Assembly: GCF_002216145.1 (NCBI RefSeq) | Contig: NZ_CP022278.1 | Location: 1,364,001-1,428,000, forward strand | Length of the DNA: 64,000 nucleotides | Direction of reading: 5' to 3' | From: Neisseria chenwenguii | Lineage (GTDB): Bacteria > Pseudomonadota > Gammaproteobacteria > Burkholderiales > Neisseriaceae | Part shown: positions 1 through 47,954 of the stretch, piece by piece | Layout: each line of letters begins with the position of its first letter | Position numbering within the stretch: the stretch's first letter is position 1 | Translations under genes and position numbers: made by a program | The notes under the pieces: model-generated | Database searches by the model: none | Seen by the model: only the letters and a program-made list of their open reading frames with translations | What the model was told of the DNA's origin: nothing

Positions 1-3000
1 GTGAAAACAGGCAATACTGTATTAAATTCAGACGGCCTCAGCTTCGTTGATGCAGCAGGCGCAACCAAAGCCGACGCACCTAAGATTACTGCGGACGGCA
101 TCTTTGCAGGCGATAAGAAAATCACCGGCGTAGCCGCAGGCGATATTTCGACCGCCCTCAGCACCGACGCCGTCAACGGCGGCCAGCTGTTCGCCACCAA
201 CACCAACGTGGCAAACAACGCTGCCGGCATCAGCGCGCTGCAAAACCAGACGTTCAAACTGCAGGCCAACGGCGATACCTCATCCGCAGTAGCCGCTGCC
301 GATACCGTACAGTTCCTTGACGGCACGAACATCGGCATTACCCGCAACGGCAACAACATCACCGTTGCCACCGCACCGCAGGTAACGTTTGACAAAGTCA
401 GCGTCGGTGATGTTGTCATCGATAAAACTGATAACAAAATCACCGGTCTGACCAACGGCGAGGTTGCCAAAGGCAGCAAAGACGCTGTTACCGGCGACCA
501 GCTGTTTGCCGTACAATCCGCCGCCAAAGCCGCACAATCCGTGGTGGAAGGCACGGGTTTTGCCAATGTTACTTCGAAAGTTGATGCTGGCACCGGCGCG
601 ACCACCTACACCGTGGACGTCGCCAAAGCAGCCGCCCCGACCATCGCACGCGGTAACGTGACCGTAGCCGACGCCGACAAAGACAAACTGCTGAGTGCAG
701 GCGACGTGGCCGAAGCCATCAACGCCTCGGAAAAAACCTCGTCCGTCGCCAACGGCGCAGGCGTAACCGTGACCGCAGGTCAGGAAGACTCGCAGGGCAA
801 CACCCTCTACACCGTCGCCCTTGATGACACGACTAAGGCCAGTCTGCAAAAAGCCGACAGCGCACTGCAAAACGTGACTTCCAAAAACACCAACCTGACG
901 GCAACCAAATCGGGTGACACCGTTACCCTCGACTTCTTGGATACTCCGACGTTTACCGGCGTAACCGCGCAAACATTTACCGCGGGTAACAACGTATTCG
1001 GTTCGGACGGCCTCAAGGCCGGCGATGTGAACATCAGCAAAGACGGCATCAACGCCGGCAACAAAGCCATAACCGGCGTAGCCAGCGGAGGAGACGTCGG
1101 CAGCAACGCCGCCAACATTGACGACGTGAAACGCTTGGCTGCCGCAGCCGATACCACCGCCAGCGTCGTGGCAGGCAACAACACCCGTGTTGAAGCCAAT
1201 ACCGCAGGCAGCAACACCGCCTACACCGTCCACGCCGAAAAAACCACCGTCAGCGCGGCTCAAGGTGCAGCGGTGAAAGTGACTGCGGGCGCGAAAGACG
1301 CAACCGACGTAACCGATTACGCCGTCGATCTGACCGATGCTGCCAAAGCCGACATCGCTAAAGGCGTCGTCGCGAAAACCGCCGTCGATACGCAAGGTCT
1401 GGCCTTCAACGGCGACAGCGGCAGCACGGGCGTGAAGAAACTCGGCGAAAGCGTAGCCTTCAAAGGCGATGAAAACCTGACCGCCACCGCAGACGCCGAC
1501 GGCATTGCCTACACGCTGAAAGACGATTTGACGCTCAACAGCGTGAAAACAGGCAATACTGTATTAAATTCAGACGGCCTCAGCTTCGTTGATGCAGCAG
1601 GCGCAACCAAAGCCGACGCACCTAAGATTACTGCGGACGGCATCTTTGCAGGCGATAAGAAAATCACCGGCGTAGCCGCAGGCGATATTTCGACCGCCCT
1701 CAGCACCGACGCCGTCAACGGCGGCCAGCTGTTCGCCACCAACACCAACGTGGCAAACAACGCTGCCGGCATCAGCGCGCTGCAAAACCAGACGTTCAAA
1801 CTGCAGGCCAACGGCGATACCTCATCCGCAGTAGCCGCTGCCGATACCGTACAGTTCCTTGACGGCACGAACATCGGCATTACCCGCAACGGCAACAACA
1901 TCACCGTTGCCACCGCACCGCAGGTAACGTTTGACAAAGTCAGCGTCGGTGATGTTGTCATCGATAAAACTGATAACAAAATCACCGGTCTGACCAACGG
2001 CGAGGTTGCCAAAGGCAGCAAAGACGCTGTTACCGGCGACCAGCTGTTTGCCGTACAATCCGCCGCCAAAGCCGCACAATCCGTGGTGGAAGGCACGGGT
2101 TTTGCCAATGTTACTTCGAAAGTTGATGCTGGCACCGGCGCGACCACCTACACCGTGGACGTCGCCAAAGCAGCCGCCCCGACCATCGCACGCGGTAACG
2201 TGACCGTAGCCGACGCCGACAAAGACAAACTGCTGAGTGCAGGCGACGTGGCCGAAGCCATCAACGCCTCGGAAAAAACCTCGTCCGTCGCCAACGGCGC
2301 AGGCGTAACCGTGACCGCAGGTCAGGAAGACTCGCAGGGCAACACCCTCTACACCGTCGCCCTTGATGACACGACTAAGGCCAGTCTGCAAAAAGCCGAC
2401 AGCGCACTGCAAAACGTGACTTCCAAAAACACCAACCTGACGGCAACCAAATCGGGTGACACCGTTACCCTCGACTTCTTGGATACTCCGACGTTTACCG
2501 GCGTAACCGCGCAAACATTTACCGCGGGTAACAACGTATTCGGTTCGGACGGCCTCAAGGCCGGCGATGTGAACATCAGCAAAGACGGCATCAACGCCGG
2601 CAACAAAGCCATAACCGGCGTAGCCAGCGGAGGAGACGTCGGCAGCAACGCCGCCAACATTGACGACGTGAAACGCTTGGCTGCCGCAGCCGATACCACC
2701 GCCAGCGTCGTGGCAGGCAACAACACCCGTGTTGAAGCCAATACCGCAGGCAGCAACACCGCCTACACCGTCCACGCCGAAAAAACCACCGTCAGCGCGG
2801 CTCAAGGTGCAGCGGTGAAAGTGACTGCGGGCGCGAAAGACGCAACCGACGTAACCGATTACGCCGTCGATCTGACCGATGCTGCCAAAGCCGACATCGC
2901 TAAAGGCGTCGTCGCGAAAACCGCCGTCGATACGCAAGGTCTGGCCTTCAACGGCGACAGCGGCAGCACGGGCGTGAAGAAACTCGGCGAAAGCGTAGCC

Positions 3001-4560
3001 TTCAAAGGCGATGAAAACCTGACCGCCACCGCAGACGCCGACGGCATTGCCTACACGCTGAAAGACGATTTGACGCTCAACAGCGTGAAAACAGGCAATA
3101 CTGTATTAAATTCAGACGGCCTCAGCTTCGTTGATGCAGCAGGCGCAACCAAAGCCGACGCACCTAAGATTACTGCGGACGGCATCTTTGCAGGCGATAA
3201 GAAAATCACCGGCGTAGCCGCAGGCGATATTTCGACCGCCCTCAGCACCGACGCCGTCAACGGCGGCCAGCTGTTCGCCACCAACACCAACGTGGCAAAC
3301 AACGCTGCCGGCATCAGCGCGCTGCAAAACCAGACGTTCAAACTGCAGGCCAACGGCGATACCTCATCCGCAGTAGCCGCTGCCGATACCGTACAGTTCC
3401 TTGACGGCACGAACATCGGCATTACCCGCAACGGCAACAACATCACCGTTGCCACCGCACCGCAGGTAACGTTTGACAAAGTCAGCGTCGGTGATGTTGT
3501 CATCGATAAAACTGATAACAAAATCACCGGTCTGACCAACGGCGAGGTTGCCAAAGGCAGCAAAGACGCTGTTACCGGCGACCAGCTGTTTGCCGTACAA
3601 TCCGCCGCCAAAGCCGCACAATCCGTGGTGGAAGGCACGGGTTTTGCCAATGTTACTTCGAAAGTTGATGCTGGCACCGGCGCGACCACCTACACCGTGG
3701 ACGTCGCCAAAGCAGCCGCCCCGACCATCGCACGCGGTAACGTGACCGTAGCCGACGCCGACAAAGACAAACTGCTGAGTGCAGGCGACGTGGCCGAAGC
3801 CATCAACGCCTCGGAAAAAACCTCGTCCGTCGCCAACGGCGCAGGCGTAACCGTGACCGCAGGTCAGGAAGACTCGCAGGGCAACACCCTCTACACCGTC
3901 GCCCTTGATGACACGACTAAGGCCAGTCTGCAAAAAGCCGACAGCGCACTGCAAAACGTGACTTCCAAAAACACCAACCTGACGGCAACCAAATCGGGTG
4001 ACACCGTTACCCTCGACTTCTTGGATACTCCGACGTTTACCGGCGTAACCGCGCAAACATTTACCGCGGGTAACAACGTATTCGGTTCGGACGGCCTCAA
4101 GGCCGGCGATGTGAACATCAGCAAAGACGGCATCAACGCCGGCAACAAAGCCATAACCGGCGTAGCCAGCGGAGGAGACGTCGGCAGCAACGCCGCCAAC
4201 ATTGACGACGTGAAACGCTTGGCTGCCGCAGCCGATACCACCGCCAGCGTCGTGGCAGGCAACAACACCCGTGTTGAAGCCAATACCGCAGGCAGCAACA
4301 CCGCCTACACCGTCCACGCCGAAAAAACCACCGTCAGCGCGGCTCAAGGTGCAGCGGTGAAAGTGACTGCGGGCGCGAAAGACGCAACCGACGTAACCGA
4401 TTACGCCGTCGATCTGACCGATGCTGCCAAAGCCGACATCGCTAAAGGCGTCGTCGCGAAAACCGCCGTCGATACGCAAGGTCTGGCCTTCAACGGCGAC
4501 AGCGGCAGCACGGGCGTGAAGAAACTCGGCGAAAGCGTAGCCTTCAAAGGCGATGAAAAC
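1..4560. repeat. Tandem 1542-bp coding repeat, three copies
   Basis: Copies lie at 1-1542, 1543-3084 and 3085-4560; the third is cut at 1476 bp, where the sequence switches to a different module. I see no base difference between copies, and all reading frames repeat with the same period. The period is a multiple of three, so copy number can change without a frameshift. The first base of the window coincides with a unit boundary, so more copies may lie upstream, or an assembly edge may fall inside the array. Confidence 0.95.
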
Positions 4561-7032
4561 ATCACCACCGAAGCAGGTTCGGACGGCCTCAAAGTCAAGC
4601 TGAACAAAGCGCTGAACGTTACGAGCGTCACCGCAGGCGATACTGTTGTAAACAACGACGGCGTGAAAGTCGGCAGCGACATCGCCCTGACTTCAGACGG
4701 CCTCAGAGCAGGCGATGTGAACATCAGCAAAGACGGCATCAACGCCGGCAACAAAGCCATCAGCAACGTAGCCGATGCCGCGAAAGACGATGAAGCCGTC
4801 AACCTCAAGCAGCTCAAAGCCGCACAAGCCGCGTCCACCAACAAAGTGGCCGCAGGCGACAACATCGAGGTAACGCCTGAGCAAAACGACGACGGCAGCA
4901 CCACCTACAAAGTGGCCACCGCCAAAAACCTGACCGTTGACAGCGTTACCGCAGGCGGTACCGTTCTGAATTCAGACGGCCTCAAAGCGGGTAACGTAGC
5001 CGTCAGCAAAGACGGCATCAACGCAGGCGGCAACAAAGTAAGCGGCGTTGCCGCAGGCAATATCGCCGCCGACAGCACCGACGCCGTCAACGGCGGCCAG
5101 CTGTTCAAAGCCGGCCAAAACGTCGCCAACGCCTTGGGCGGCGGCAGCACCGTTGACGCCGCAGGCAACGTGACCGCGCCGAGCTACACCCTTGTCAGCG
5201 GCAAACCTTCAGACGGCACCACCGCCGCCTACACCAACGTAGGCGACGCCCTGACCGCGCTGAACACCGCCGTGACCAGTCCGCTGACTTTTGCAGGCGA
5301 CAGCGGTACAGCATCCGAGCGCAAGCTGGGCAGCACCGTAGCCGTTAAAGGCGGCGTAACCGACGCCGCGAAACTCGCCGACAACAACATCGGCGTGGTT
5401 TCAGACGGCAACGGCACGCTGAACGTGAAACTGGCGAAAGAGCTGCAAGGCTTGAACAGCGCCCAGTTCGCCGATGCGGCAGGCAACACCGCCACTGTCA
5501 ACGGCAGCGGCATGAGCATCACGCCTGCCGACGGCGGCAACGCAGTAAGCCTGTCTGAAAAAGGTCTGAACAACGGCGGCAACGTGATTGCCAATATCGG
5601 CGAAGGCCAAGCCGGTACCGATGCGGTAAACGTGAATCAGCTGAACCGTGCCGCTGCGGCAGCCGCCAACAAAGTGGCTGCAGGAGACAACATCGTGGTA
5701 ACGCCTGAGCAGAACAACGACGGCAGCACCACCTACAAAGTGGCCACCGCCAAAAACCTGACCGTTGACAGCGTTACCGCAGGCGATACCGTTGTGGACA
5801 ACAGAGGCGTAAAAGTCGGCAACTACGTCGCACTTACTTCAGACGGCCTCAAGGCCGGTGATGTGAACATCGGCAAAGACGGCATCAACGCCGGCAACAA
5901 AGCCATAACCGGCGTAGCCAGCGGAGGAGACGTCGGCAGCAACGCCGCCAACATTGACGACGTGAAACGCTTGGCTGCCGCAGCCGATACCACCGCCAGC
6001 GTCGTGGCAGGCAACAACACCCGTGTTGACACCAATACCGCAGGCAGCAACACCGCCTACACCGTCCACGCCGAAAAAACCACCGTCAGCGCGGCCCAAG
6101 GCGCAGCGGTGAAAGTGACTGCGGGCGCGAAAGACGCAACCGACGTAACCGATTACGCCGTCGATCTGACCGATGCCGCCAAAGCCGACATCGCTAAAGG
6201 CGTCGCCGCGAAAACCGCCGTCGATACGCAAGGTCTGGCCTTCAACGGCGACAGCGGCAGCACGGGCGTGAAGAAACTCGGCGAAAGCGTAGCCTTCAAA
6301 GGCGATGAAAACATCACCACCGAAGCAGGTTCGGACGGCCTCAAAGTCAAGCTGAACAAAGCGCTGAACGTTACGAGCGTCACCGCAGGCGATACCGTTC
6401 TGAATTCAGACGGCATCAAAGCGGGTAACGTGGCCATCAGCAAAGACGGCATCAACGCAGGCGGCAACAAAGTAAGCGGCGTTGCCGCAGGCAATATCGC
6501 TGCCGACAGCACTGAAGCCGTTAACGGCGGACAACTGTTTGCCACCAATGCCAACGTGGCTGCCAATACTGCCAACATCAGCGCGCTGCAAAACGGCGGC
6601 GCAGGCGTGGTGCAGTACAGCAACGAAGAAGGCGCGTTGAACGGCGGTCAAGCTGCCAACGACGTAACCCTCGTCGGCAAAGATGCCCCCGTTGTCATCC
6701 ACAACGTCGGTGCAGGCCGTGCTCCGACCGATGCGGTTAACGTCGGCCAGCTCCAAGCCGTCGGCAGTCATCTGACGCAACAAATCAACGGTGTCGAAAC
6801 ACGCGCCAACGCCGGTACAGCCGCTTCCATGGCCATCGCCGGCCTGCCGCAAGCCTACCTGCCCGGCAAGAGCATGATGGCGGTTGCAGGCAGCACCTAC
6901 CGCGGCGAGAGCGGTTACGCAGTCGGCTTCTCCAGCATCTCCGACGGCGGCAACTGGGTGATCAAAGGCACTGCCTCCGGCAACTCGCGCGGTTACTACG
7001 GCGCAACCGCCGGTATCGGTTACCAGTGGTAA
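1..7032 (+). CDS. Trimeric autotransporter adhesin (YadA/Hia-like), 3' part of a larger gene
   Basis: An open frame runs from the window edge to a TAA at 7030-7032 (2343 codons visible). The true start and signal peptide lie outside the window, so the GTG at base 1 is not a supported start. The protein is made of repeated head/stalk modules of the YadA/Hia superfamily: ITGVA-type motifs, DAVNGGQLF and DAVNVGQL neck-like motifs, and KDGINAGNK segments. It ends with a YadA anchor (ASMAIAGLPQAYLPGKSMM to a terminal GIGYQW), a four-strand beta-barrel per monomer that trimerises in the outer membrane. Three consecutive 1542-bp DNA repeats make up 1-4560, and part of the unit recurs near 5838-6310. 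Family role: surface adhesion, autoaggregation or serum resistance. Which ligand it binds cannot be seen. Several uptake-sequence-like stretches (TTCAGACGGCCT) lie inside the coding repeats. Confidence 0.93.
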   Translation: MKTGNTVLNSDGLSFVDAAGATKADAPKITADGIFAGDKKITGVAAGDISTALSTDAVNGGQLFATNTNVANNAAGISALQNQTFKLQANGDTSSAVAAADTVQFLDGTNIGITRNGNNITVATAPQVTFDKVSVGDVVIDKTDNKITGLTNGEVAKGSKDAVTGDQLFAVQSAAKAAQSVVEGTGFANVTSKVDAGTGATTYTVDVAKAAAPTIARGNVTVADADKDKLLSAGDVAEAINASEKTSSVANGAGVTVTAGQEDSQGNTLYTVALDDTTKASLQKADSALQNVTSKNTNLTATKSGDTVTLDFLDTPTFTGVTAQTFTAGNNVFGSDGLKAGDVNISKDGINAGNKAITGVASGGDVGSNAANIDDVKRLAAAADTTASVVAGNNTRVEANTAGSNTAYTVHAEKTTVSAAQGAAVKVTAGAKDATDVTDYAVDLTDAAKADIAKGVVAKTAVDTQGLAFNGDSGSTGVKKLGESVAFKGDENLTATADADGIAYTLKDDLTLNSVKTGNTVLNSDGLSFVDAAGATKADAPKITADGIFAGDKKITGVAAGDISTALSTDAVNGGQLFATNTNVANNAAGISALQNQTFKLQANGDTSSAVAAADTVQFLDGTNIGITRNGNNITVATAPQVTFDKVSVGDVVIDKTDNKITGLTNGEVAKGSKDAVTGDQLFAVQSAAKAAQSVVEGTGFANVTSKVDAGTGATTYTVDVAKAAAPTIARGNVTVADADKDKLLSAGDVAEAINASEKTSSVANGAGVTVTAGQEDSQGNTLYTVALDDTTKASLQKADSALQNVTSKNTNLTATKSGDTVTLDFLDTPTFTGVTAQTFTAGNNVFGSDGLKAGDVNISKDGINAGNKAITGVASGGDVGSNAANIDDVKRLAAAADTTASVVAGNNTRVEANTAGSNTAYTVHAEKTTVSAAQGAAVKVTAGAKDATDVTDYAVDLTDAAKADIAKGVVAKTAVDTQGLAFNGDSGSTGVKKLGESVAFKGDENLTATADADGIAYTLKDDLTLNSVKTGNTVLNSDGLSFVDAAGATKADAPKITADGIFAGDKKITGVAAGDISTALSTDAVNGGQLFATNTNVANNAAGISALQNQTFKLQANGDTSSAVAAADTVQFLDGTNIGITRNGNNITVATAPQVTFDKVSVGDVVIDKTDNKITGLTNGEVAKGSKDAVTGDQLFAVQSAAKAAQSVVEGTGFANVTSKVDAGTGATTYTVDVAKAAAPTIARGNVTVADADKDKLLSAGDVAEAINASEKTSSVANGAGVTVTAGQEDSQGNTLYTVALDDTTKASLQKADSALQNVTSKNTNLTATKSGDTVTLDFLDTPTFTGVTAQTFTAGNNVFGSDGLKAGDVNISKDGINAGNKAITGVASGGDVGSNAANIDDVKRLAAAADTTASVVAGNNTRVEANTAGSNTAYTVHAEKTTVSAAQGAAVKVTAGAKDATDVTDYAVDLTDAAKADIAKGVVAKTAVDTQGLAFNGDSGSTGVKKLGESVAFKGDENITTEAGSDGLKVKLNKALNVTSVTAGDTVVNNDGVKVGSDIALTSDGLRAGDVNISKDGINAGNKAISNVADAAKDDEAVNLKQLKAAQAASTNKVAAGDNIEVTPEQNDDGSTTYKVATAKNLTVDSVTAGGTVLNSDGLKAGNVAVSKDGINAGGNKVSGVAAGNIAADSTDAVNGGQLFKAGQNVANALGGGSTVDAAGNVTAPSYTLVSGKPSDGTTAAYTNVGDALTALNTAVTSPLTFAGDSGTASERKLGSTVAVKGGVTDAAKLADNNIGVVSDGNGTLNVKLAKELQGLNSAQFADAAGNTATVNGSGMSITPADGGNAVSLSEKGLNNGGNVIANIGEGQAGTDAVNVNQLNRAAAAAANKVAAGDNIVVTPEQNNDGSTTYKVATAKNLTVDSVTAGDTVVDNRGVKVGNYVALTSDGLKAGDVNIGKDGINAGNKAITGVASGGDVGSNAANIDDVKRLAAAADTTASVVAGNNTRVDTNTAGSNTAYTVHAEKTTVSAAQGAAVKVTAGAKDATDVTDYAVDLTDAAKADIAKGVAAKTAVDTQGLAFNGDSGSTGVKKLGESVAFKGDENITTEAGSDGLKVKLNKALNVTSVTAGDTVLNSDGIKAGNVAISKDGINAGGNKVSGVAAGNIAADSTEAVNGGQLFATNANVAANTANISALQNGGAGVVQYSNEEGALNGGQAANDVTLVGKDAPVVIHNVGAGRAPTDAVNVGQLQAVGSHLTQQINGVETRANAGTAASMAIAGLPQAYLPGKSMMAVAGSTYRGESGYAVGFSSISDGGNWVIKGTASGNSRGYYGATAGIGYQW

Positions 7033-7090
7033 ACCTTTTCAGACGGCACTGAGGCAGTTGTCAGGCCGTTTGAAAAAAACAGGCGAAACA

Positions 7091-7126
7091 AAAATACCCG
7101 CTTGAAGAGCGGGTATTTTCTTTTTT
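7091..7126 (+). terminator. Rho-independent terminator of the autotransporter gene
   Basis: A 12-bp perfect stem (AAAATACCCGCT / AGCGGGTATTTT) with a short loop is followed by a T-rich run. Confidence 0.85.
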
Positions 7127-7148
7127 GGGGAAAAGGGCAGGGTAGGCC

Positions 7149-7287
7149 GGGACCTTTGCAAAAATAAGAAACGCCTGTCTGAATACCGTCTGAAACGGTT
7201 AATATCCCAACCGATGTCATTTCCGCCTGCGCAGGAATGCCGTCTGTAAAAGTTTCAGACGGCCATTCTGATTTTTGCAATGGTCTC
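7149..7287. mobile_element. MITE-like element with IS1106/IS5-type ends
   Basis: The 17-base ends GGGACCTTTGCAAAAAT (7149-7165) and, inverted, GAGACCATTGCAAAAAT (7271-7287) bracket about 105 bp without a gene. The GAGACCTTTGCAAAA-type end resembles, from memory, terminal repeats of neisserial IS5-family elements. The interior holds a dRS3-like inverted repeat (near 7215-7240) and uptake sequences. No transposase remains. Confidence 0.5.
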
Positions 7288-7387
7288 AGGCCGTCTGAAA
7301 TTCCTCCGTTTTTTCACTCATATCAAAACTGCTTTTCCGTGCAGCTTCTATAATCCGCGCCAACCAAAACAACAAAACCAACCTCAA

Positions 7388-8314
7388 ATGAACCTACGCT
7401 ACTGGCTTGCGGCGGCGCGTTTGCGCACACTGCCGCTGGCGCTTGCGGGCACGCTCGCGGGCAGTCTGGCTGCCGCCGTGCAGCATCGGGCGGATTTCGC
7501 CGTCGCTGTTTTGAGCACGGCAACAGCCGTTTCCTTGCAGATGTTCGCCAACTTCGCCAACGATTACGGCGACGGCTGCCGCGGTACTGACGGCGCATCG
7601 CGTCGGGGGCCGCAGCGCATGGTCGGCTCGGGGCGCATCGCCCGCCAAACCATGAAACGTGCACTTTGTCTGAGCGCGGCGGTCTGCTGCCTTCTCGGGT
7701 TGGCATTGCTGGCGGCGGCATTCGGGCGGACGGGCGGATTTTGGGCGCAGACATGGCCGTGGCTGGCAGCGGGCGCCTTGTCGCTGGCAGCGGCCTACGG
7801 CTACACGGCGGGACACAAACCCTACGGTTACGCGGGTTTTGGCGATTTGGCTGTCTTTGTATTTTTCGGTCTGCTGGCGGTGGCAGGGACGGCGTTTCTG
7901 CAAACAGGCCGTCTGAACGCCGTCACGCTGCTGCCCGCCTGCGCGGTGGGATTTTGGTGCGTGATGGTGCTGAACCTCAACAATATGCGCGACATCGAGG
8001 GCGATGCGGCTTCGGGTAAACGCACGCTCGCCGTGCGCTTGGGATTGGCGCGCGCCAAACGCTACCATACTGCGCTTGCGCTTACGGCTGCGATGTGCTG
8101 GGGAGTATGGCTGCTGCGCAGTTTCAGCGGCACAGGTTTGGCGGCATTGTGCGGCCTGCTGGGCGTGCTGACCGCCGCGCATCTGGTTATGGCGGGAAAA
8201 GCCCGAAACAGTGCGGATTTCGACAAGCTGCTGCCGCAATGGAGCATGGCGGTATCGGCCTGGGTGGCGGCATTGTGGGTGGCAGCGTTGCTTGGGGCGG
8301 TAGGTGGTTATTGA
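7388..8314 (+). CDS. menA: 1,4-dihydroxy-2-naphthoate polyprenyltransferase (MenA)
   Basis: UbiA-superfamily membrane prenyltransferase that attaches the polyprenyl tail to dihydroxynaphthoate in menaquinone synthesis. The two Asp-rich motifs are visible: NDYGDGCRGTD in the first half and NNMRDIEGDAASGKRTLA in the second. About eight hydrophobic segments fit the fold, and 308 aa is the normal MenA size. I chose the ATG at 7388 because MNLRYWLAAARLRTLPLA matches the family N-terminus; the upstream in-frame extension to 7280 runs into the repeat element. No other men genes are in the window. Confidence 0.88.
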   Translation: MNLRYWLAAARLRTLPLALAGTLAGSLAAAVQHRADFAVAVLSTATAVSLQMFANFANDYGDGCRGTDGASRRGPQRMVGSGRIARQTMKRALCLSAAVCCLLGLALLAAAFGRTGGFWAQTWPWLAAGALSLAAAYGYTAGHKPYGYAGFGDLAVFVFFGLLAVAGTAFLQTGRLNAVTLLPACAVGFWCVMVLNLNNMRDIEGDAASGKRTLAVRLGLARAKRYHTALALTAAMCWGVWLLRSFSGTGLAALCGLLGVLTAAHLVMAGKARNSADFDKLLPQWSMAVSAWVAALWVAALLGAVGGY

Positions 8315-44486: not shown

Positions 44487-44522
44487 GGCCGTCTGAAAGT
44501 GTTTGATACTTTCAGACGGCAT
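44487..44522 (+). terminator. valS terminator and left flank of the accessory island
   Basis: A GGCCGTCTGAAAG inverted pair with loop TGTTTGATA is nearly identical to 47804-47836 at the other side of the island. Confidence 0.75.
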
Positions 44523-44528
44523 TTTTTG

Positions 44529-44747
44529 TTAAATAAAATAGGATTTTACGTCATACCCCGCTTGTCTAATGTTCTGCTTTATTTTCAGTAAAGCCCTCCA
44601 GTCACTCGGTGAAGTAGAGATGAAAATTTTTACACTCTTGACCGGCTCTATCAAAACGCCATGCTTCCTGCGCTTCTGAAACTGCCAACCATGTTTTATC
44701 AGCGCACAAATAAATTGGTGAACGTCTTTATTGGAACTGTACTTCAT
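44529..44747 (-). CDS. HicA-like small protein, 72 aa
   Basis: MKYSSNKDVHQFICALIKHGWQFQKRRKHGVLIEP... resembles the double-stranded-RNA-binding-like fold of HicA toxins (start helix, HGW, basic strand, His in RKHG, terminal IRQAGYD helix). There is no HicB-type antitoxin next to it. An alternative start at 44822 adds 25 residues. It is divergent from the unknown helical protein gene and shares its low GC content, so it probably came with the island. HicA identity is tentative. Confidence 0.5.
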   Translation of the reverse strand: MKYSSNKDVHQFICALIKHGWQFQKRRKHGVLIEPVKSVKIFISTSPSDWRALLKIKQNIRQAGYDVKSYFI

Positions 44748-44931: not shown

Positions 44932-46530
44932 ATGGCTACTTTGCCCACCTTTGAAAAAATCTTGTTAGAAGTGCATCAATCTTTAGGCATTTATCAAAAA
45001 CAAACTAATCAAAAAAATCGGTTTGCAGAACATTTGAATACCTTAAATAAGTATGAGCAGATGTTAGAAATCATAGTTGATGAGATTTGTGCAGCTACTG
45101 AAATTGATGATTTAGATGAGAAAGCGCGGTTTGATTTCATTCAAAATTTATGTGATACAGCTTTTTGCTATACCGAGCTATATAGCAAAATATACACTTT
45201 CAATGCAAACAAGCGGAATATTATTTGGCATTTATTAGGTTTTTACTTTGCTCCTTCATTAGCTCGCCGAGCTGCTTTTTGGAATTTCCCACAATTAGAT
45301 AAAGGTATGCCTCGTGGTCGATTTTGGTATCTGCCTGACTGGCATATGCCAAAAAAACAGGGAGAATTGTATTTGCCTATTCCGCAAGTCATGGATTGGT
45401 TTTTTGACTTATGGGGAAAAAGCCCAAGGGAATATGCCGAATTTTATGATAGTAAATTTAATAAACATAAGGCAGATTCAGTAGAAAGAATGTTCAATAA
45501 ATGGCAAAACGGCGTAACACCAGAAGTCGCAACGATTCGAGAATATTTCCGTGATGATTTGAAATTGGAGTTTTCTGGCTGTTTTGAATTGGAAGATTCT
45601 TTATCACTTCAGGAACAGTATCAAGCAGCAAAAGCATTTATGAATAAGAAAAATTTGAATGCCAAAGAGCTATATGCTGAATTACTGCTAAATCAAATAC
45701 CTGATGAAGAGAGCGAAGATTGGGAAAAAGCATACTTTGTGAAATGGGTTGCAGAAAGATACCAAAAACCGGCCAATAAAATTGTCCGCCACCGTTTTTT
45801 AATGGCTCGTATGTTTCAAGATGGCTATATCCGGTTATTGAAATTTCTTTTTCCTGAAGTATCCCCTTTATGTGCAGAACCTTCTACCAATAAAATATTA
45901 CAAATAATTGATATTTATCATGCTATTTACAACTTGACTGTTGAGGCTAATGTGGAGGTTGGAGATAAAGACTACTTTTCCGAATTCAGAGAAAATAAAT
46001 ATTTTGAGAAAGAGTTGCAAAAATATCAGTTGGATTATTTAACTCTTTTTTCAGGTATTTTGCCATCTGATGTATATGAAAATCGAGCAATAGCCGAATT
46101 AAGCCAAGTATTAACGCAATATTTTGATTGGGCGGAAGATGACCTTCCTGATTTTCTTTCCTACCCTGAGTACCCTAAAAGCCTTAAAGCAGTTGAATAT
46201 AAATTGAAATACATTACTTACTATGGCGAACTTATACACGACATTGAACGTATTAGGGGTTTATTGAACAATTCTCAAGCTCTAGAGCAAGAAAACAATT
46301 TTGAGGCACTTCGTCATGTGTATAAAGATTTGAATCGTTCACGACAAAAATCATTTATGAAATATTTGGAAAAAAATGCTAAAACAGATAGGGAAAAGAT
46401 GTGTGTAATTTTAGAAAAATTACATAACAAATTAAACCTATCAATTCGCCAAGCAGATGATTGTGTTCAAGTTACAAACTTACTGAAACAAGCAGAAAGC
46501 AATACTGAAACAAGCAGAAAGCAATACTGA
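44932..46530 (+). CDS. Large helical protein of the viperin island, truncated by a 22-bp duplication
   Basis: ATG 44932 follows AAGGAGGAAAGA, an excellent site. The current frame gives 532 aa (MATLPTFEKILLEVHQSLGIY...) and ends within the second copy of a 22-bp tandem repeat. Removing one copy joins it to the frame ending at 46927, giving 657 aa. The sequence is rich in helix-forming and aromatic residues, with no signal peptide or membrane segment, and I recognise no domain. Low GC compared with valS and pgi. The restored 3' end overlaps the viperin start by 26 nt, so a functional link and translational coupling are likely. Possible roles (sensor, effector or viperin partner) are inference. 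Confidence 0.7.
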   Translation: MATLPTFEKILLEVHQSLGIYQKQTNQKNRFAEHLNTLNKYEQMLEIIVDEICAATEIDDLDEKARFDFIQNLCDTAFCYTELYSKIYTFNANKRNIIWHLLGFYFAPSLARRAAFWNFPQLDKGMPRGRFWYLPDWHMPKKQGELYLPIPQVMDWFFDLWGKSPREYAEFYDSKFNKHKADSVERMFNKWQNGVTPEVATIREYFRDDLKLEFSGCFELEDSLSLQEQYQAAKAFMNKKNLNAKELYAELLLNQIPDEESEDWEKAYFVKWVAERYQKPANKIVRHRFLMARMFQDGYIRLLKFLFPEVSPLCAEPSTNKILQIIDIYHAIYNLTVEANVEVGDKDYFSEFRENKYFEKELQKYQLDYLTLFSGILPSDVYENRAIAELSQVLTQYFDWAEDDLPDFLSYPEYPKSLKAVEYKLKYITYYGELIHDIERIRGLLNNSQALEQENNFEALRHVYKDLNRSRQKSFMKYLEKNAKTDREKMCVILEKLHNKLNLSIRQADDCVQVTNLLKQAESNTETSRKQY

Positions 46531-46532
46531 AA
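46482..46532. repeat. 22-bp tandem duplication that breaks the reading frame
   Basis: The unit starting ACTGAAACAAGCAGAAAG occupies 46482-46503 and 46504-46525 exactly, with a 7-nt partial third copy (ACTGAAA). 22 is not a multiple of three, so each extra copy shifts the frame by +1. Confidence 0.95.
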
Positions 46533-46927
46533 GTGAATTATGGAATGTTCCTATTCTGAAATATAAAGCACGTCATGCGCTTTATCAGAATAAGTTTGAC
46601 GAAGCATTAGAATTATTTCAACAGGCATTAGAAGCAGGAAAAAGTAGACATTTTGGTATCCAATTATCTGAAATTGCATGTGATTGCCTTGCATTAGCGG
46701 CCTCAATGAAAAAGATAGACCGTAAAACACAAGAAAAATTTTATAGAACTGCCGTAAACGGCGGAGTCTTGCAATATAACCATAGCAACCTGGGAATATA
46801 CAGCTTATTTCTCAAACCGCCTGTTAGTTTTGAGGACTATGCCCAATACTGCTGTAAATACTTTTTAGAAAATTTATACAAACCTTACTCGGGGTACAAA
46901 TATGAACAACCAAGAACTCACAATTAA
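46526..46927 (+). pseudogene. Out-of-frame C-terminal part of the helical protein (TPR-like)
   Basis: The frame after the duplication reads ...ELWNVPILKYKARHALYQNKFDEALELFQQALEAG..., a TPR-like helical pair, and continues to TAA 46925-46927. It has no start of its own with a ribosome-binding site, and is in frame with the upstream gene once one 22-bp unit is removed. About 130 residues. Confidence 0.7.
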
Positions 46928-47792
46928 TTGGCACATTGCCGAAGCCTGTAATTACGTCTGCCGTTATTGCTTTGCCAAATGGGAAAAAAGCGGCAGAGAA
47001 CTGCTGCATTTTTCAGACGGCATTGCAGCTATGATAACGGAAATTGCCAAGCTACCAGTTTTGTTTAATCAGCAAAAAGGCACGTCGTTCGACAGCGTAC
47101 GTTTGAATCTGGTTGGTGGAGAACCGCTGCTATACAAAGCACAGACCATGCAGATTATCCGCGCGGCGCGCGAGCAAGGGCTGGCTTTGTCTATGGTTAC
47201 CAACGGTAGTTTGTTGGATGATGAATGGTGCGAAGTGATTGCCCGTGATTTTAAGGGTATCGGTATCAGTATTGATTCAGTGAGTGGACAAACCAATCTA
47301 GACATCGGCCGCCATGCGAAAAATCAACTTATGCCGTCTGAACAGGTTGTGCGGCGGATTCAGGCCATCCGTGCTGGCAATCCGAATATCGGCATTAAAA
47401 TCAATACAGTAGTGAATCAGTTGAATTATCGGGAAAATATGGCTGATTTTATTGCCGAGGTCGCGCCCGACAAATGGAAAATCTTCAAAATGCTGCCCAT
47501 GATTACCGAAGATTTATCAATTGACGACACGCAGTTTCAGCAGTTTTTGGACAGACATCAAGAGTTCCATCATCTGATTTGTTCGGAAAACAACAATGAA
47601 ATGGTAGATTCTTATGTGATGATTGATCCGTTGGGCAGATTTTTCCGAAACAGTTTACAGGTTTGCGGCGGCTACCGTTACAGCCAGCCGATTTACCAAG
47701 TCGGTGCAGAACGTGCACTTACGGAAATGTATGTGGATACGGAGAAATATCGGCAGCGATATATTACGATTAAGCAGAGAAAAGCTGCTTGA
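46902..47792 (+). CDS. Prokaryotic viperin (pVip), radical-SAM antiviral nucleotide synthase
   Basis: The 296-aa protein has the radical-SAM motif CX3CX2C at Cys16, Cys20, Cys23 (HIAEACNYVCRYCF) and the GGEP motif at 72-75 for SAM binding. Viperin-specific signatures follow in order: SMVTNGSLL (98-105), GISIDS (121-126), DIGRH, GIKINTVVNQLN (164-175), PDKWKIFKML (189-198) and FLDRHQEFHHLI...VDSYVMIDPLGRFFRN (215-250). These match the C-terminal half of human viperin block for block. Known pVips convert CTP, GTP or UTP to 3'-deoxy-3',4'-didehydro nucleotides that stop phage transcription. Which nucleotide is used cannot be read here. It contains two uptake sequences (47012-47023 inverted, 47332-47343). 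It overlaps the frame of the helical protein by 26 nt; GGGG at about 46892-46895 may serve as ribosome-binding site. Confidence 0.9.
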   Translation: MNNQELTINWHIAEACNYVCRYCFAKWEKSGRELLHFSDGIAAMITEIAKLPVLFNQQKGTSFDSVRLNLVGGEPLLYKAQTMQIIRAAREQGLALSMVTNGSLLDDEWCEVIARDFKGIGISIDSVSGQTNLDIGRHAKNQLMPSEQVVRRIQAIRAGNPNIGIKINTVVNQLNYRENMADFIAEVAPDKWKIFKMLPMITEDLSIDDTQFQQFLDRHQEFHHLICSENNNEMVDSYVMIDPLGRFFRNSLQVCGGYRYSQPIYQVGAERALTEMYVDTEKYRQRYITIKQRKAA

Positions 47793-47803
47793 AAAAAGTT
47801 CCA

Positions 47804-47836
47804 GGCCGTCTGAAAGTTTTGATACTTTCAGACGGC
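47804..47836 (+). terminator. Terminator after the viperin gene, right flank of the island
   Basis: GGCCGTCTGAAAG / CTTTCAGACGGC with loop TTTTGATA. Apart from one position it equals the valS terminator. Confidence 0.75.
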
Positions 47837-47954
47837 CTGGAATTTTAATTTGCTTTTCTTGGAAAGGTTCTGACCTGAAATTTTGCAGGAATCAATTAAA
47901 GGGGCCGTCTGAAACGGATAATCTGGTTCGGACAGCCTTTTTCACTTGGCTTGC

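Follow-up and report, generated by a model that had tools for sequence, protein, structure and literature searches.

A predicted prokaryotic viperin with an intact reading frame in an AT-rich cassette of a Neisseria genome

The stretch of Neisseria chenwenguii DNA considered here (64,000 nucleotides, referred to below as the window) contains, at positions 46902..47792 of the plus strand, an intact gene predicted to encode a prokaryotic viperin (pVip) of 296 amino acids, which is nearer to the bacterial pVips than to animal viperin. It is the last gene of an AT-rich cassette (~44.5-47.8 kb) that is flanked by valS and pgi and also contains a HicA-like gene and a broken "Ankyrin"-family gene. 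As a whole, the sequence and the structure model are best explained by a working pVip that makes a ddh-nucleotide and limits phage infection, present in a cassette that was probably acquired, and this reading is considered very likely. The enzyme is an ordinary member of an already well-known type, and its partners are also of known types.

The viperin frame begins with an ATG at 46902 and extends for 296 codons, with no internal stop, to a stop codon that ends at 47792. The NCBIfam model NF038283 ("viperin family antiviral radical SAM protein") matches the protein over profile positions 1-280 of 281 with a score of 331.9 bits (cut-off 180), and the same model finds nothing in 14 control genomes. 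Among the PADLOC models, the best is that for pVip without kinase association (1.8e-96), followed by the model for kinase-associated pVip (5.3e-84). The radical-SAM core is recognized by PF04055 (6.4e-12; 46.4 bits, cut-off 29.5), the CX3CX2C motif corresponds to C16, C20, and C23, and GGEP occupies residues 72-75. Viperins of solved structure match by sequence with E values from 9.9e-27 to 2.3e-23, and all 9 of the 9 distinct PDB sequences found at E<=1e-20 are, by their names or entry titles, viperins or viperin-like enzymes. Thus, the scores with NF038283, PADLOC, and the solved viperins (2.3e-23 or lower) place the match far beyond chance. Animal viperin is the more distant type: its model, TIGR04278, scores 98.2 bits, below its cut-off of 450, and the match begins only at profile position 59.

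An AlphaFold2 model of the pVip, built from three sequences, is of moderate confidence (mean pLDDT 75.3, pTM 0.77) and is weak around the cluster cysteines (residues 15-33, pLDDT <50). When this model is used in a Foldseek search, the best 30 matches are all viperins or viperin-like proteins (E values of 6.4e-19 to 3.0e-15), among them mouse viperin with CTP or with UTP. The first other radical-SAM enzyme to follow is a sactipeptide maturase (4.0e-10). As modelled, the protein has the viperin fold. Equivalences to mouse viperin were taken from a sequence alignment, in which adding 44 to the chain number makes the first cluster cysteine residue 84; the nucleotide-contact residues, the catalytic Tyr302, and the numbering are those of the mouse enzyme. 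By this alignment, Tyr302 (Y238), Lys220 (K166), Asn222 (N168), Lys247 (K193), Arg194 (R137), and Ser180 (S123) are identical, and Lys120 and Arg245 are changed conservatively to R67 and K191. An alignment of 13 pVips has 37 invariant columns, including the three cysteines, the GGE of GGEP, R67, K166, N168, K193, and Y238. K191 is not invariant, and GGET takes the place of GGEP in 2 of the 13 proteins, both of them encoded by Moraxellaceae plasmids. A conserved Tyr in the active site is also mentioned in PMC8124187.

The position of the protein among its relatives was examined in a 34-row tree comprising 13 pVips, three viperin sequences from eukaryotes, and 18 other ORFs, each of the latter being the longest ORF with CX3CX2C and GGE[PA] at a locus found with the same query, and taken as radical-SAM by motif alone. 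The 16 viperin rows, including that of the window, lie on one side of a branch with support of 82/73 that is present in 80% of the bootstrap trees; this support is moderate. Within the branch, the nearest neighbour of the window protein is the pVip of a related genome, G017 (95/92); the next to join are the plasmid-borne pVips from Acinetobacter towneri and Moraxella osloensis (92/99). The tree program warns of long branches meeting, which leaves the deeper branching order unsure; one outgroup branch (L018) is very long.

These results bear on an earlier, sequence-only reading of the window, which had placed a viperin at 46902..47792 from CX3CX2C, GGEP, and five further blocks of sequence; every one of these is present in the translation. 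For that reading, a best match to pVips rather than to MoaA or other radical-SAM groups would count as support, and the pVip model does score far above the MoaA model (331.9 versus 55.6 bits), while the comparison of structure models points the same way. It had also named two findings that would speak against a viperin, placement outside the viperin clade and absence of the nucleotide-binding residues. Instead, the protein groups with 15 other viperins, at the moderate support given above, and the residues are kept relative to mouse viperin, two of them by conservative change. The viperin reading is thus supported; the two partner genes of the cassette did not figure in it.

Relatives were sought in 149 related genomes, in class, order, and phylum samples, in genomic contigs, in viral contigs, and in plasmid and phage records. 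Some match at E<=0.001 is present in 67 of the 149 related genomes. A full-length pVip is found in 2 of them, the window's own genome (G000) and G017, whose protein is 61% identical to that of the window and is the closest relative found. No further pVip was found in the genus, and in the remaining genomes the best match is a partial one that does not surpass 6.3e-10. The pVip model exceeds its cut-off in 5 of 369 class, 4 of 399 order, and 4 of 398 phylum genomes (the window's own genome counted each time), and one further genome of the order sample contains a partial match under the cut-off. The viral contigs contain 0 relatives of the window pVip, and the phage records contain 7 partial matches, none of which covers 80% of the protein.

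Two of the sampled genomes carry more than one stretch related to pVip. In genome G194, a very distant second relative (L050:8059-9006, minus strand; 22% identical to the window pVip) either overlaps the pVip frame at its upstream end or directly adjoins it there. Genome G893 contains, ~11 kb from an intact pVip, another stretch that matches pVip in part (L071:5571-6148), with one stop within the model match and a HicA-like gene of its own.

The cassette differs in composition from the genes on either side of it. In 500-base windows, GC content is 0.54-0.62 within valS, 0.58-0.64 within pgi, and 0.32-0.47 at ~44.5-48.0 kb; by gene, it is 0.568 for valS, 0.604 for pgi, 0.393 for the hicA-like gene, 0.341 and 0.351 for the two Ankyrin-family parts, and 0.449 for the viperin gene. 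However, GC content also falls at 41.0-41.5 kb (0.454) and at 49.5-50.0 kb (0.398), and low GC alone is therefore not unique to the cassette. Each edge is marked by a terminator-like hairpin made of two inverted DNA uptake sequences, one behind valS at the left (44488..44520, plus strand) and one behind the viperin gene at the right (47797..47844, plus strand). Of 46 genomes of the genus, 44 have valS and 45 have the end of pgi (or of its paralogue). An empty site was sought on the valS side of G039, G033, and G014 and on the pgi side of G039 and G033. The valS stretch does not continue into pgi in any of the three, so a conserved empty site was not found in these genomes, and the sequence that follows valS differs between G039 and G014. 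Both observations place the cassette at a rearranged junction. A PADLOC scan of five other genes of the window at 1e-5 gave no match and no further defence gene; thus, no wider defence island is seen among these genes.

At the left end of the cassette, the HicA-like gene (PADLOC PDLC02910, 4.7e-24) lies on the minus strand at 44529..44747, divergent from the Ankyrin-family gene. It encodes ~72 amino acids and is the one match to its family in the whole genome. The protein has no match to Pfam HicA at E<=1, and a relative in locus L068 matches HicA_toxin at 0.079, under the cut-off. Nine aligned HicA-like proteins share the invariant residues G20, W21, H29, L32, P47, D49, and R51, which include one histidine.

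The Ankyrin-family gene is broken into two open parts, both on the plus strand. The first (44932..46530) matches positions 1-521 of 880 of the PADLOC model "Ankyrin" (PDLC02908) at 1.1e-115 and probably starts at the ATG behind AAGGAGGAAAG at 44932, although the list of ORFs gives 44908. This part is 31-34% identical to its relatives and ends early at a frame break. The second part (46487..46927), of 146 amino acids, is in another frame, matches the relatives to about residue 655-669, and overlaps the start of the viperin frame. At the break is a 22-bp tandem duplication (46481..46532, plus strand; 2.4 copies, 100% match), whose unit is not a multiple of three and which is known from one assembly only. 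The relatives in loci L067, L068, and L072 stay open over 912-933 codons and carry their ankyrin repeats near residues 750-870, an end that is wholly missing from the window copy. Thus, part of the locus is decaying rather than being maintained. A single-sequence structure model of the Ankyrin-family protein has a mean pLDDT of 37.3. A class-wide search with a 540-amino-acid Ankyrin part found it in 1 of 369 genomes, its own, whereas the PADLOC model and blastp do find relatives; among the viral contigs, there was no pattern match to the gene. Some relatives, on Acinetobacter plasmids and in genome G139, have no pVip nearby, which weakens the case for a strict pairing of the two genes.

How often these neighbours accompany pVip was assessed at 20 pVip loci: the window, 12 loci from the genome samples, 2 from genomic contigs, and 5 from plasmid records. 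The 12 are that of G017 and every other find in the class, order, and phylum samples, one being a partial pVip at a contig end; the 5 are among the best of 21 plasmid records, of which two same-species copies and 14 more distant ones were omitted. Because neighbours were called by blastp (E<=1e-3) within stretches that in some cases end with the contig, the counts are lower bounds from a non-random sample. A HicA-like gene is present at at least 8 of the 20 loci (the window, L042, L046, L052, L068, L069, L070, and L071) and an Ankyrin-family gene at at least 4 (the window, L067, L068, and L072). By the same test, 2 loci (the window and L068) have both and 10 have neither. PADLOC confirmed the HicA-like and Ankyrin-family neighbours found by blastp.

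The presence of HicA beside pVip is already in print, and PADLOC has models of both partners. The available text of Gerdes 2024 (PMC10865869) describes hicA genes upstream and downstream of pVip genes, in HicA classes 9 and 10, adds that others (Bernheim 2021) also saw hicA beside pVip, and proposes that the HicA RNase strengthens the action against phages; its main text makes no use of the word "ankyrin". A search of the literature joining viperin or pVip with ankyrin returned no paper on that pairing by title. The PADLOC accessions for "Ankyrin" and "HicA-like" are close to those of the pVip models, which suggests that the authors of these models had them as pVip partners.

Other neighbourhoods deserve mention in their own right. 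At L038:4881-5920 and L039:4834-5878, the plasmid pVips nearest to that of the window, from Acinetobacter towneri and Moraxella osloensis, are each preceded by a small unknown gene and a gene whose product has an LRAT domain (PF04970, 2.9e-26 and 2.2e-21). A recombinase gene also lies in each vicinity, and the LRAT-domain protein is perhaps another pVip partner. At L047:5019-5929, a HicA-like gene and a fragment of an Ankyrin-family gene are divergent and have no pVip; two adjoining genes resemble a putative AbiE pair. In the second Neisseria with a pVip (L046), a 210-amino-acid protein (6884-7513, plus strand) with weak helix-turn-helix matches, all under the Pfam cut-offs, is encoded upstream of the hicA-like gene and pVip, and these two stand between genes that, by reading, are presumably topoisomerase-like and methyltransferase-like.

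The uptake sequences of the window speak to the nature of the host. The window holds 117 copies of the core uptake sequence GCCGTCTGAA, versus 0.14 expected; 76 of them belong to the AG-DUS 12-mer and 18 to the AT-DUS 12-mer. According to the available text of Frye 2013 (PMC3630211), AT-DUS is found in N. meningitidis, N. gonorrhoeae, N. lactamica, N. cinerea, and N. polysaccharea, and AG-DUS in N. subflava, N. flavescens, N. elongata, and others. Given this distribution, the dominance of AG-DUS in the window makes it likely that the host is neither of the two classical pathogens. The sequence-only reading had called the host a commensal Neisseria, and the uptake-sequence dialect, on which this point rests, fits that description. 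Two uptake sequences lie inside the viperin frame and leave it unbroken, while the G017 gene lacks these two; this is as expected after some time in Neisseria. Elsewhere in the window, a trimeric autotransporter adhesin (1-7032, plus strand; YadA_stalk 3e-61, YadA_anchor 1.2e-15) is listed from the first base and contains stretches repeated exactly three times with a spacing of 1542 bp.

In the proposed mechanism, C16, C20, and C23 would hold a [4Fe-4S] cluster, and the enzyme would cleave SAM to generate a 5'-deoxyadenosyl radical. CTP, UTP, and/or GTP would then be converted to the 3'-deoxy-3',4'-didehydro (ddh) form, with Y238 as the putative catalytic tyrosine. The resulting ddh-nucleotide would terminate the RNA chains made by a phage polymerase, and infection would be limited. 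The lineage probably acquired this cassette, which, like other pVip loci, encodes a HicA-like putative RNase. The Ankyrin-family gene is degraded here, and the viperin consequently probably acts without its product.

Whether the protein is in fact a viperin, and whether it still works, can be weighed with the same data. A different radical-SAM enzyme, MoaA-like or a peptide maturase, that happens to carry viperin-like motifs would account for the breadth of the NCBIfam scan, in which 72 families match at E<=1, MoaA (TIGR02666) among them with 55.6 bits. However, the MoaA score is far below its cut-off of 284.05, and among the 25 of the 72 families listed, only pVip exceeds its own cut-off, by a wide margin, with the 24 others falling short of theirs; tree and fold both point to viperin. 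This identity is extremely improbable. A decaying relic, with an open frame and an enzyme that no longer functions, is improbable as well, if less so. It would suit a locus whose adjoining Ankyrin-family gene is truncated and frame-broken, and a protein found at full length in so few (2 of 149) related genomes. Yet all 37 columns that are invariant in the other 12 aligned pVips are kept in the window protein, and the uptake sequences that the G017 gene lacks lie within the frame without breaking it. In addition, the window and G017 genes differ at codon positions 1, 2, and 3 in 96, 65, and 137 of 296 codons, with more third- than second-position changes, and 73 of the 190 changed codons are silent; judged as a pattern rather than by a formal statistic, this appears as expected under constraint. 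The codon pattern, the intact frame, and the conserved site favour the prediction of a functional enzyme.

A separate question is whether the three genes form one defence module, in which the viperin and the HicA-like RNase would be effectors and the Ankyrin-family protein a sensor, regulator, or antitoxin, the module being impaired here or switched by the 22-bp repeat. The recurrence of the partners at pVip loci, both of them in the window and L068, the divergent HicA-like gene and Ankyrin-family fragment of L047, which occur even without a pVip, and the position of the duplication at the frame break are all consistent with this arrangement. It is nevertheless unlikely. The Ankyrin-family gene has lost its repeat end too, which argues for decay rather than switching, and the repeat number is known from a single strain; moreover, 16 of the 20 pVip loci have no Ankyrin-family gene by blastp, and relatives of that gene occur on Acinetobacter plasmids and in G139 with no pVip nearby. 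Slightly more doubtful still is the fuller proposal of one recurrent system in which the Ankyrin-family protein acts as a sensor of infection or holds its two partners in check, and the duplication is a switch or a recent loss that alters control. The preferred reading remains that of a functional pVip beside a degraded neighbour.

With this locus, the viperin branch of innate immunity extends to Neisseria, a genus capable of natural transformation; the literature that names viperin and Neisseria together, as far as its text is available, reports no Neisseria viperin. It also offers an entry point to the roles of two little-studied pVip partner genes. The view of what viperins are is unchanged by it.

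Compared with the known pVips (NF038283, PADLOC PDLC02903), the protein of the window has the same full-length match, motifs, fold, and tree placement and differs only in its host and in its combination of neighbours, the nearest found being the 61% identical protein of G017. Like the HicA class 9 and 10 loci in the available text of Gerdes 2024 (PMC10865869), the window has a HicA-like gene in a pVip locus; however, the Ankyrin-family gene separates it from pVip, and it is encoded on the opposite strand. This is also unlike the second Neisseria (L046), where the hicA-like gene is directly upstream of pVip and overlaps its frame. The window copy of PADLOC "Ankyrin" (PDLC02908) corresponds to roughly the first 640 positions of the family, which is pVip-adjacent in L067, L068, and L072 as well. 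In those loci the gene is divergent from pVip, whereas in the window it is frame-split, lacks the repeat domain, and is read in the same direction as pVip. Finally, the animal and fungal viperins (TIGR04278; PDB 6q2p and 9dgw) have the same predicted fold and active-site residues as the window protein, although identity in the best 30 structural matches is 25-28%.
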